Shown one piece after another: positions 31,113-34,348 of a stretch of 34,352 nucleotides of DNA. Below the pieces are notes generated by a model, which was given only the letters and a program-made list of their open reading frames with translations, ran no database searches and had not been told where the DNA came from. The DNA lies in NCBI GenBank assembly GCA_016935615.1, contig JAFGQO010000127.1, forward strand, positions 1-34,352, read 5' to 3'. Each line of letters starts with the position of its first letter. Position 1 is the stretch's first letter. The position numbers and the translations under genes are program-made. The DNA is from Bacteroidales bacterium. Lineage in GTDB: Bacteria > Bacteroidota > Bacteroidia > Bacteroidales > UBA10428.

Positions 31113-31862
31113 CTATCTCTTAACGATCCTGATGGTCATAAACATCGACAGCTCTTGTGACAGAGACAACAGGACTCTGTCCAGCAAAGTGAAAAATCCG
31201 AAACTCCACCCGGGAAATGGTGCCTTGTATGCTACACCACCGCTTAGTAAATATCTCAAAGGAGTATGGTATGTAATGCTTTCGATTTTCAGATCAGGAA
31301 ACCGGTCTGCAAATAAGGATACATCCCTCCTGAAAACTATCCAGGGTAAGGCACCGTTCGCTCCGCTCATGGGACCTGTGCCCGGAATTGTCCATTCGCC
31401 ATTTTCATCAAACGGTTCATGATGAAAATTCTTATATATAAACCGACCCCAGGCAGAATTTGCCGGTTCGATCATGACGATCTTCCCTCCTTTCTTCAAC
31501 ACCCTATCCGATTCTTTTAAAAACTGATTGGCATCAGGTATGTGATGAAACGTGTCCAATAAGAATAATACGCTTACTTCCGAGTCCTGAAAAGGCATTT
31601 GCAGTGCCGAAAATGTCAGATCGGTATGAGGCAATGGAATAATATCACTCGTGATAACGGAGGGAACAATGTTCTTCAGAAATCCGCCTCCAGAACCCAG
31701 TTCGACTACCTTTCCATCCGGAACAGATCTTATTTCCTGCACCAGCGTACGATACCATTCAACATAAATTTTTTTCAAAAATGGTTTGTTCAGGATGATC
31801 TCCCTGTGAAACAAGGTTCTTTCAGATGAATCAAGATCATATTTGGTTTTGTATTTTAACAT
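31113..31862 (-). CDS. Class I SAM-dependent methyltransferase
   Basis: A 249-residue methyltransferase with a Methyltransf_11-type core. Motif I is VVELGSGGGFLKN (near 53-65), the acidic strand is VITSDIIPLPHTD, motif IV is VSVLFLLDTFHHIPDA and the helix before motif VI is ESDRVLKKGGKIVMIEPA. The C-terminal 100 residues are aromatic-rich (WGRFIYKNFHHEPF) and end in a hydrophobic segment, hinting at a lipid-linked or membrane-bound acceptor. The acceptor is not known. A transposase separates it from the methyltransferase-glycosyltransferase fusion, and the two may have been neighbours in one glycan or lipid locus (inference). Confidence 0.85.
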   Translation of the reverse strand: MLKYKTKYDLDSSERTLFHREIILNKPFLKKIYVEWYRTLVQEIRSVPDGKVVELGSGGGFLKNIVPSVITSDIIPLPHTDLTFSALQMPFQDSEVSVLFLLDTFHHIPDANQFLKESDRVLKKGGKIVMIEPANSAWGRFIYKNFHHEPFDENGEWTIPGTGPMSGANGALPWIVFRRDVSLFADRFPDLKIESITYHTPLRYLLSGGVAYKAPFPGWSFGFFTLLDRVLLSLSQELSMFMTIRIVKR

Positions 31863-31893
31863 TTCTGCCGTATATCAGGTTTATTAATTAAGC

Positions 31894-31975
31894 CAGGCTG
31901 AAAGTCTGAAAGATCAAAACAGGGGGCATAGCCCTCTGATACTGGATACTTTACTGAATTCACTCTGAAAGAGTG
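31894..31975. repeat. Three triloop hairpins downstream of the transposase
   Basis: Stems at 31894-31908 (one G-T pair), 31921-31937 (one G-T pair) and 31961-31975 (perfect) have loops GAA, ATA and GAA. They resemble REP/BIME-type hairpins used as Y1 transposase recognition sites. Confidence 0.65.
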
Positions 31976-31983
31976 AGATATAA

Positions 31984-32439
31984 CTATCTCCAGAAAAAGT
32001 CAGCATTATATTCAATAATATCATATTGTTTTATAAAATCTTCTACTTCTTCTATGTAAGATTTATGTAGATGATGTCCTTTCTGATTTTCAATGTATTT
32101 TATTACTGTACTAACTTTTGAACCACTTACGGAAAAAGCCCCATAACCTGTTTGCCATGCAAATTTATTATGTCCTTCTTTGATCTCCTTCATCCATTTT
32201 GAGGATTGCTTTTTAATTTCTTCAACTACTCTGGCGAGAGAGTAATTCTTTGAGAGGCGAAATAATATATGGATATGGTCAGGAACAGAGTTAATTAGTA
32301 TTGCAGGACTTTTATATGTTTTTAAAGTACCGGCAATATAAGAATGTAATTGCATCCTGCACGCGTTTTGAATGAACGGAAAACGGTCCTTTGTCCCGAA
32401 GGTAAGATGAACATACAGTTGTGAAAGAGATTGTCCCAT
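31984..32439 (-). CDS. IS200/RAYT-like Y1 HUH transposase
   Basis: A 151-residue single-strand transposase of the Y1_Tnp fold. It cuts and joins DNA through a tyrosine after recognising hairpins. The metal-binding HUH motif is DHIHILF near residues 54-60, and the nucleophile is the Tyr in STVIKYIENQKGHH near 115. The N-terminus YVHLTFGTKDRFPF and the WQTGYGAFSVS segment are those of the small IS200-like proteins common in Bacteroidota. No TnpB/IscB partner is present. The flanking triloop hairpins make a REP-associated (RAYT-like) role possible; the 151-residue length also fits IS200 TnpA. Both key motifs are intact, so it may be active. Confidence 0.88.
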   Translation of the reverse strand: MGQSLSQLYVHLTFGTKDRFPFIQNACRMQLHSYIAGTLKTYKSPAILINSVPDHIHILFRLSKNYSLARVVEEIKKQSSKWMKEIKEGHNKFAWQTGYGAFSVSGSKVSTVIKYIENQKGHHLHKSYIEEVEDFIKQYDIIEYNADFFWR

Positions 32440-32869
32440 GGTGATTTCTTTATCCCAGGCTTTCAGCCTGAATTAGTATACTATTTATTAATACCGGGGC
32501 GTTGCCCCGGCTTTCGGTATTTCAGCCTTTCAGGCTGACTCTCAATCCGAATACACTATGAATATCAGGAAAAATATTCCCTTAAAAGTACACAAATATT
32601 CAAAAATCTTTTCATTCACACTTTGCGATCTTAGCGCATCCTTTCCGCGAACGCTGACAGCCGTCGGCCAAAGCCTATGGCGTCGAACGAAGCTACTCTG
32701 CGGAGGCGCTGGGAACTCTGCAGTTTATCCTGCTCTGAATACATCCTCTTACGGCACCACTCATATACACAGGTTTTCATATGCAGAATAAATAAGTTTT
32801 TTTTCAATTCCAAAAATGCAAAACTGCTAAAGAACAAACCAATTCGTTACATGATCAATAAGGAAATCG
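32440..32869. other. Spacer with REP hairpins and a G+C-richer patch
   Basis: There is no convincing gene. The first 100 nt hold the three upstream hairpins. From about 32636 to 32740 base composition turns G+C-richer than the surroundings and is rich in short inverted pieces such as CGTCGGCC against GGCGTCG. ORFs on either strand here (32558-32791 plus; 32631-32837 minus) lack family features. The patch looks like a dispersed repeat or decayed insert. Confidence 0.5.
32456..32537. repeat. Three triloop hairpins upstream of the transposase
   Basis: Perfect stems occur at 32456-32470 (CAGGCT/AGCCTG), 32494-32510 (CCGGGGC/GCCCCGG) and 32523-32537 (CAGCCT/AGGCTG), with loops TTC, GTT and TTC. 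The outer stem is the order-swapped version of the inner one. They mirror the downstream set. Confidence 0.75.
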
Positions 32870-34348
32870 ATGAAAGTTACAGAACTAAAAAAAAAGACAT
32901 TATTTTTAACGCCGAAATCACAAACAGATCACGAAACAATGACAGGTCAGGAGATTTATCATACCTATTTTGAGAAACTAGCAGCAAAAAGAACAAAATG
33001 GAAAAAAAGAAACCGGTTCTATCACAAGATCCTGGAAAAACACTTTCAATTCATAATTCCTGAAGGATCAAAAGTACTGGAACTGGGATGCGGAACAGGT
33101 GAGTTGCTGAATGCCGTGAAACCATCCGTAGGAGTTGGTGTCGATTTTTCGGGAAATATGCTGAAAATCGCCAGGGATAAATTTCCTCATTTGCAGTTCA
33201 TACATGCCGATGTTACAAATTTCTCCTGCAAAGCGAAATTCGATTATATCATTATTTCCGATCTTCTATCATCCCTCTGGGATATTCAGGCAACATTTAA
33301 AAATATCACAGGACTCTGCCACTCAAGAACGAAGCTTGTGATTTCGAATTACAATTATATGTGGGAGCCTTTACTTCGTTTTTTCTCTGCAATCTGTCTG
33401 AAGGCAAAACAGCCTCTTCAAAACTGGCTGACTATCGGAGATATTAAAAATTTGCTGGAACTGGAAGGTTACGAAATGGTACGGGTAGATAGAAAATTAT
33501 TGTTGCCCAAGTACATCCCTTTCTTTAACTGCATCTACAATAAATTTCTGGCCAACCTGCCGGGTATCAACAGGTTAAACCTGGTACAACTGATCACTGC
33601 ACGCCCGGTCAATAAAAATACAAAGCAATACTCGGTATCGGTTGTTGTACCTGCAAGAAATGAAATGGGGAACATAGAAAATGCGATAAAACGCACACCG
33701 GAATTCAGCACACACCAGGAATTTATTTTTATCGAAGGGCATTCGAAAGACGATACATACAAAGAAATGCTGCGGGTAAAAAATGCTTTCCCTGGAAAAG
33801 ACATTAAGGTGATGAAGCAATCGGGCAAAGGCAAGGGCAATGCAGTGCGTGAAGCTTTTGAAGTGGCTAAAGGAGACATTCTGATGATCCTGGATGCCGA
33901 TCTTACTACCCCGCCCGAAGATATGATCAAATTTTACGAAGCTCTGGCACAAAATCACGGCGAGTTTATCAATGGCTGCCGGTTGGTGTACCCTATGGAA
34001 AAGCAGGCCATGCGTTTTTTGAATTACCTGGGAAATAAGTTCTTTAGCTGGTTTTTTACCTATCTTCTGGGGCAGCGATTAAAAGATACGTTGTGTGGCA
34101 CTAAGGTGCTTTTCCGTAAAGATTATGAGCGTATTGCAGCAAATCGCAACTATTTTGGCGATTTCGACCCCTTTGGCGATTTCGAAATGCTGTTTGGGGC
34201 AGCAAAATTAAATCTTAAAATTGTTGAAGTCATTGTACGCTACCGCGACCGTGAATACGGCTCAACCCAGATCAGCCGGTTCAGACATGGATGGTTGCTG
34301 ATACGAATGAGCCTGTTTGCTGCCAGGAAAATGAAGTTTATTGTATAA
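32870..34348 (+). CDS. Fused methyltransferase - family 2 glycosyltransferase
   Basis: A single 492-residue frame joins two enzymes. Residues about 60-190 form a class I SAM methyltransferase (VLELGCGTGELLNAV, VGVDFSGNML, FDYIIISDLLSS). From about 255 a GT-A family 2 glycosyltransferase follows: VSVVVPARNEMGNIENAIKR, the GKGKGNAVREAF helix, the metal-binding DxD in MILDADLTTPPEDM, and a C-terminal half with CGTKVLFRK and DFEMLFGAAK. A short amphipathic segment (FFSWFFTYLLG) may touch the membrane. DPM/GtrB-like relatives glycosylate polyprenyl phosphate, and a methylated, lipid-linked sugar is a fair guess. The stop is 4 nt before the window edge, so the gene is complete. The role is inferred from domains only. 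Confidence 0.85.
   Translation: MKVTELKKKTLFLTPKSQTDHETMTGQEIYHTYFEKLAAKRTKWKKRNRFYHKILEKHFQFIIPEGSKVLELGCGTGELLNAVKPSVGVGVDFSGNMLKIARDKFPHLQFIHADVTNFSCKAKFDYIIISDLLSSLWDIQATFKNITGLCHSRTKLVISNYNYMWEPLLRFFSAICLKAKQPLQNWLTIGDIKNLLELEGYEMVRVDRKLLLPKYIPFFNCIYNKFLANLPGINRLNLVQLITARPVNKNTKQYSVSVVVPARNEMGNIENAIKRTPEFSTHQEFIFIEGHSKDDTYKEMLRVKNAFPGKDIKVMKQSGKGKGNAVREAFEVAKGDILMILDADLTTPPEDMIKFYEALAQNHGEFINGCRLVYPMEKQAMRFLNYLGNKFFSWFFTYLLGQRLKDTLCGTKVLFRKDYERIAANRNYFGDFDPFGDFEMLFGAAKLNLKIVEVIVRYRDREYGSTQISRFRHGWLLIRMSLFAARKMKFIV

Follow-up and report, generated by a model that had tools for sequence, protein, structure and literature searches.

We propose that a locus from a Bacteroidales genome is a REPtron-like system that is centered on a Y1 transposase from subclass 1.2 of TnpA-Y1. 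The gene is flanked by two inverted sets of three hairpins (triplets), and we think it likely that these triplets are recognised by the transposase and are dispersed as non-autonomous units, with the gene itself remaining static. From comparing sequences, we see the architecture of the locus, the restriction of the triplets to one clade of transposases, the dispersal of the triplets, and the resemblance of the dispersed copies to the transposase flanks in their own genomes.

Two inverted hairpin triplets frame a transposase gene

We analyzed a stretch of 34,352 nucleotides (the window), and in its sequence, six triloop hairpins surround one intact open reading frame (ORF), all of them at the positions in Table 1. 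The original prediction described a transposase between two mutually inverted sets of three hairpins, with a GAA/TTC-loop hairpin, a G+C-rich hairpin, and another GAA/TTC-loop hairpin on each flank. This description is accurate. From the outside to the inside of each flank, the order is H1 (with a GAA loop), H2 (G+C-rich, with a stem of 7-8 bp), and H3 (with a GAA loop). The loop-to-loop spacings are 28 nt and 39 nt on both flanks.

Table 1. Features of the locus, with positions in the window.
Feature	Position	Strand	Details
H1, downstream triplet	31894-31908	+	CAGGCT-GAA-AGTCTG; one G.T pair
H2, downstream triplet	31920-31938	+	CAGGGGGC-ATA-GCCCTCTG
H3, downstream triplet	31960-31976	+	TCACTCT-GAA-AGAGTGA
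Downstream triplet as a unit	31891-31978	+	Model R1, 71.8 bits; in inverse orientation to the upstream triplet
Y1 (HUH) transposase, 151 aa	31984-32439	-	Pfam PF01797 (Y1_Tnp), E = 5.8e-26
H3, upstream triplet	32456-32470	-	CAGGCT-GAA-AGCCTG; plus strand, CAGGCT-TTC-AGCCTG
H2, upstream triplet	32494-32510	-	CCGGGGC-AAC-GCCCCGG; plus strand, CCGGGGC-GTT-GCCCCGG
H1, upstream triplet	32522-32538	-	TCAGCCT-GAA-AGGCTGA; plus strand, TCAGCCT-TTC-AGGCTGA
Upstream triplet as a unit	32453-32540	-	Model R1, 83 bits

When we scanned the window for triplets with this geometry, we found exactly two, and both of them flank the transposase. The same scan found zero triplets in 60 dinucleotide-shuffled windows, and a stricter scan found one weak triplet among 30 shuffles. 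Compared to dinucleotide shuffles, the folding energy of the right flank has z of about -7, and the folding of the left flank is weaker (z = -1.2 on the minus strand and -2.5 on the plus strand). We did not find any terminator-like site in the region. The neighbours of the element are a methyltransferase gene (31113-31862) and a gene for a fused methyltransferase/glycosyltransferase-2 (32870-34348).

The transposase and its class

By its HUH, WQ, and Y---Q--HH motifs, the window protein belongs to subclass 1.2 of TnpA-Y1. It contains DHIH, WQ, and YIENQKGHH, with H54/H56, W94-Q95, a catalytic-type Y114, Q118, and H121-H122 (numbered by the aligned protein, without the first Met). Across 29 sequences, H54, H56, Y114, and Q118 are invariant, and the signature of the subclass (DH[IV]H, WQ, and Y---Q--HH) is invariant or nearly so. 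The protein scores 59.2 bits against the NCBIfam model for IS200/IS605 (over the cut-off of 55) and 30.7 bits against REP_Tyr_transpos (under the cut-off of 80). Given the latter score and the Y---Q motif, we describe the locus as working like a REPtron, although its protein falls outside TnpAREP (class 2) and its unit is the tri-hairpin. The closest solved structures, as found by a sequence search, are the TnpA proteins of IS608 and ISDra2. The predicted fold (pLDDT 87) has its best E-value match to IS608 TnpA; the TnpAREP structure 4er8 has the lowest rmsd among the significant fold matches, which is only suggestive.

Quentin et al. 2018 (PMC6006769) described the members of subclass 1.2 as proteins of about 150 aa with low copy number, found in Bacteroidetes, without REPs, and "generally" without the end structures of IS200. 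The window's own genome contains two Y1 genes that are diverged from each other (33% identity), so there is one copy of this gene, and each relative's genome usually has 1-5 diverged copies. Near-identical copies of the whole element, which would mark an IS200/IS605 element, were not found in the window's own genome. A search of viral contigs found no relative.

The triplet is a trait of one transposase clade

We compared about 110 loci from relatives, in which hairpins were scanned for by hand and with a covariance model of the triplet (R1), and we placed 107 of the proteins in a tree. In one clade (support 99/93), triplets flank 29 of the 29 members; in its sister clade, they flank 3 of 71, with five weak model matches scored as triplet-positive. 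The triplet clade has members from Bacteroidota, Balneolota, and Verrucomicrobiota. The spacing from H1 to H2 in the relatives is 27-30 nt (nearly always 28), and from H2 to H3 it is mostly 38-43 nt. Because the seeds for alignment A1 were picked as hairpins, we left the covariation counts on this alignment out of the evidence.

The sister clade has inverted sets of its own, in which short hairpins are separated by an unpaired GGTAG that reads toward the gene. Among the loci outside the triplet clade, there is an inward GGTAG within 250 nt upstream at 45/76 and downstream at 43/76. (Examples from the sister clade are L087, L068, and L101.) Given the triplets at every member of one clade and the GGTAG sets at other loci, the published lack of REPs or IS200 ends for subclass 1.2 seems too broad. 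With its fixed geometry of three hairpins, the triplet is a candidate DNA partner for a widespread transposase subclass that was published as being without recognition hairpins.

Gene-free triplets in relatives and in the window's own genome

The original prediction was that triplets would be dispersed as non-autonomous units. This is supported in the relatives: R1 triplets are present in 30 of 60 of them, with a maximum of 72 per genome, and they far outnumber the transposase genes. Triplets were found in 28 of the 44 genomes with the transposase gene versus 2 of the 16 without it (p = 0.0009). We also examined a second set of 198 genomes from across the phylum, of which only the window's own was used for building R1. 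Twenty of these genomes are triplet-positive, and 18 of the 20 carry the transposase, versus 95 of 198 overall (p = 7e-5); the other two have no transposase gene at the threshold that we used. Excluding the matches in the window's own genome, 22 of the 103 R1 matches in these 198 genomes are less than 700 nt from a transposase gene.

Most dispersed triplet sequence is intergenic: ORFs cover 23% of the triplet bases, versus 82% for the surrounding loci. For 34 of 55 dispersed copies, the best match is to the transposase flanks of the same genome, where 2.9 would be expected; we consider this comparison to be descriptive only, because the copies are not independent. In one genome (G038), two transposases carry triplets, one with hairpins of the GCCCT type and the other of the GCTCT type, and the dispersed triplets form two corresponding families, so a clean test of specificity is possible. 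Another genome (G057) has long tandem arrays of H1-H2 units, with a spacing of about 54-67 nt (L183 and L182).

The window's own genome is a more modest case, with few copies, none of them exact. The hairpin CAGGCT-TTC-AGCCTG was expected to be multi-copy, but the exact sequence (CAGGCTNNNAGCCTG) occurs in just one place in this genome, so the literal count fails for this sequence. Besides the two window triplets, R1 identified a divergent pair of triplets on contig C147 and a solo triplet on contig C66. We did not find any transposase remnants near the gene-free triplets that we examined in this genome. Any dispersal in the window's own genome is seen in the C147 pair and the C66 triplet, but not in copies of this element's own hairpins. 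The C147 pair is closest to the triplets of another genome (G017), and given the 7% estimated contamination of the assembly, both C147 and C66 may have come from another genome. There are also weaker H1-H2 doublets within a repeat of about 400 nt on contigs C23, C119, C121, C133, and C91 (L189-L193), and three of the five copies are at contig ends. One of these loci (L190, on C91) has an ORF whose first residues, MAKILGLDLGTNSIGWAVVENK, resemble the beginning of a Cas9.

Probable mobility of the triplets and conserved positions of the gene

Solo triplets in G016 could be compared to congeners at three sites, and all three sites are empty there: two are empty in both G021 and G017, and the third is empty in the one congener compared. 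The boundaries of these insertions are not base-exact, and the triplets may have been lost from the congeners at the three sites instead of being gained in G016. The transposase gene is syntenic in four comparisons at the level of genus or family (Dyadobacter species, Cytophaga species, two Marinifilaceae, and Salegentibacter/Gillisia).

Dispersed copies can also be old and static, as ten dispersed loci are common to two Dyadobacter species (G060 and G062). All ten of the alignable loci are occupied in both species, so we dropped this pair as a test of insertion polymorphism. In G180 and G172, the regions around the triplet matches do not align.

In G051 (L176, L177, and L181) and G046 (L145, L150, and L156), the hairpins lie inside a MITE-like element whose ends are TCAATGTCGTTTAGTTAA, and the only strong Y1 match in G051 belongs to another clade. 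We withdrew both genomes as evidence that the Y1 enzyme mobilises triplets, because these terminal repeats look foreign and another transposase may move the elements with these ends. The MITE-like element is present in two families of the order.

In relatives, part of the triplet matches the Rfam family Acido-Lenti-1

In relatives, the H2-H1 part of the triplet, read on the reverse strand, corresponds to the 46-nt model of RF01687 (Acido-Lenti-1). At L010 and L012, the two flanks each exceed the gathering score of 37 bits, as does one flank of L016, and L019, L034, L047, and L049 match below that score. The window's own triplets (L004) have no match to RF01687 at E = 0.05, and neither do any of 14 loci from the sister clade. 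RF01687 was found in 20 of the 60 relatives, all 20 of which carry the transposase family, and in 0 of the 16 relatives without it. We also searched six named genomes. Matches to RF01687 adjoin transposases in Verrucomicrobiota and Planctomycetota as well (L402 and L403). One genome from the Planctomycetaceae has 110 matches, and the one copy that we inspected from this genome (L401) is a complete inverted double triplet without the gene. The original prediction of a REPtron-like system of Bacteroidota is supported as to the architecture but too narrow in its taxonomy: triplets also flank transposases in Balneolota and Verrucomicrobiota, and matches to RF01687 adjoin them in Verrucomicrobiota and Planctomycetota.

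The discoverers of RF01687 described it from Acidobacteria and Lentisphaerae and rated it as a probable RNA, and the available part of their description mentions neither H3 nor a transposase. A 2026 paper suggested that copies of Acido-Lenti-1, for example those near proteases in Tannerella, regulate protease genes. We did not find a published link between RF01687 and a transposase in the literature that we searched. As the triplet set is scattered without the gene in many genomes, and part of it corresponds to RF01687, we suggest that Acido-Lenti-1 is probably transposase-linked DNA and not a free-standing RNA gene; this comparison covers sequences from Bacteroidota, Verrucomicrobiota, and Planctomycetota. 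This would offer an explanation for a family that has been unexplained since 2010 and is still invoked for gene regulation.

Alternative explanations

The locus might be an ordinary insertion sequence of the IS200/IS605 type, with the whole H1-H2-H3-tnpA-H3-H2-H1 block transposing. The NCBIfam name for the protein fits this, and when elements from different genomes are compared, their similarity often stops at the outer hairpins: for G000 (the window's own genome) and G003 it begins from H1 on one side, and for G017 and G010 it runs from H1 to H1, with both sides bounded. However, the gene's copies are usually few and diverged within each genome, its synteny holds between species in all four of the groups listed above, and gene-free triplets far outnumber it. 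Also, the left and right ends of IS200/IS605 elements differ from each other and are not inverted repeats, and these elements move as a unit. We consider this explanation to be unlikely. It seems less likely still that the Y1 gene is a bystander and that the dispersed units belong to an unrelated (DDE-type) transposase, as MITEs in which hairpins were captured. The elements in G051 and G046 would fit, but their TCAATGTCGTTTAGTTAA ends were not found around the triplets of the other genomes examined, except for one copy in G039 (L313), and neither the matching of copies within genomes nor the clade restriction would be expected.

If the hairpins were a structured non-coding RNA (RF01687) that lies beside transposases by chance, this would agree with L010 and L012, where each of the two flanks matches above the gathering score, and with the discoverers' rating of the family. 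But we would not expect such an RNA to have up to 110 copies per genome, to occur as an inverted pair (the one inspected copy), or to have its loop sequence inverted between the two flanks; and its stems vary among genomes yet match the local transposase, and its presence varies between congeners. We find a chance association very improbable. Finally, the intergenic location of the hairpins would suit bidirectional terminators or mRNA-stabilising hairpins, but the absence of a terminator-like site from the region, the fixed three-hairpin geometry, and the association with one transposase clade leave almost no weight for a role of only this kind.

Proposed mechanism and relation to known systems

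In the REPtron-like system that we favor, the transposase very likely recognises the single-stranded hairpins of the flanking triplets. Each unit would consist of H1 (with a GAA-type loop), 28 nt, H2 (with an 8-bp stem, often after NTAG or NAA), about 39 nt, and H3 (with a GAA-type loop). Through HUH/tyrosine chemistry, the enzyme would cut and rejoin single-stranded DNA near the triplets, probably that of the lagging strand. Triplets or inverted pairs of triplets would in this way be dispersed as non-autonomous units, without movement of the gene. We infer the recognition, the cleavage site, and the single-stranded intermediate from the protein family, and we presume that it is this protein, and not another, that mobilises the triplets. 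The sequences also show that congeners differ in the presence or absence of triplets, that the gene keeps its place in several pairs of species, and that H2-H1 corresponds to RF01687 in relatives.

The protein resembles the published subclass 1.2 (Quentin et al. 2018, PMC6006769) in its length of about 150 aa, its low copy number, and its DH[IV]H, WQ, and YI-NQ-HH motifs. Unlike the published subclass, most of the members that we examined have inverted sets of hairpins, and the triplets are dispersed. The locus resembles REPtrons (TnpAREP/RAYT with REP/BIME/REPIN, from E. coli, Pseudomonas, and Stenotrophomonas) in having a low-copy and non-jumping HUH/Y1 gene, inverted hairpins, cognate intergenic copies (although the case from the window's own genome is weak), and perhaps, in part of the cases, a GTAG-like motif 5' of the hairpin. 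It differs from REPtrons in that the protein is from class 1 (Y---Q) and not class 2 (Y---NP) and scores under the cut-off of the RAYT model, and in that there are three hairpins at fixed spacing and no strict GTAG. With IS200/IS605 elements such as IS608 and ISDra2, which include the closest solved structures by sequence, it shares the protein family and the HUH and Tyr-x3-Gln motifs. The likeness to RF01687 is that its model corresponds to H2-H1 beside transposases in Bacteroidota, Verrucomicrobiota, and Planctomycetota.

A broader proposal, to which we give an even chance, is that subclass 1.2 represents a separate REPtron-like domestication from IS200 (class 1). In this proposal, the three hairpins would together form one composite recognition unit in single-stranded DNA, with an inverted dimer as the mobilised form, and Acido-Lenti-1 would be the same DNA unit, and no independent RNA gene, in these three phyla. 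If this is right, then class 2 is not the only source of REPtron-like domestication, and IS200-like enzymes of class 1 gave rise to it too.

A GTAG-like motif before the second hairpin in some triplets

The position in the triplet clade that matches the GGTAG of the sister clade is just 5' of H2, and it is often NTAG or NTAA. Among 38 triplets, the motif before H2 is GTAG in 2 and NTAG in 6, and it is mostly NTAA, NCAA, or NAAG. WQ is also a motif of several subclasses that have canonical GTAG-bearing REPs, and the conserved GTAG-contact residues that are listed for those subclasses include W94 and Q95, so a guide-like role for the NTAG 5' of H2 is plausible. In a member of the triplet clade from Verrucomicrobiota (L049), there is a GTAG just 5' of H2.
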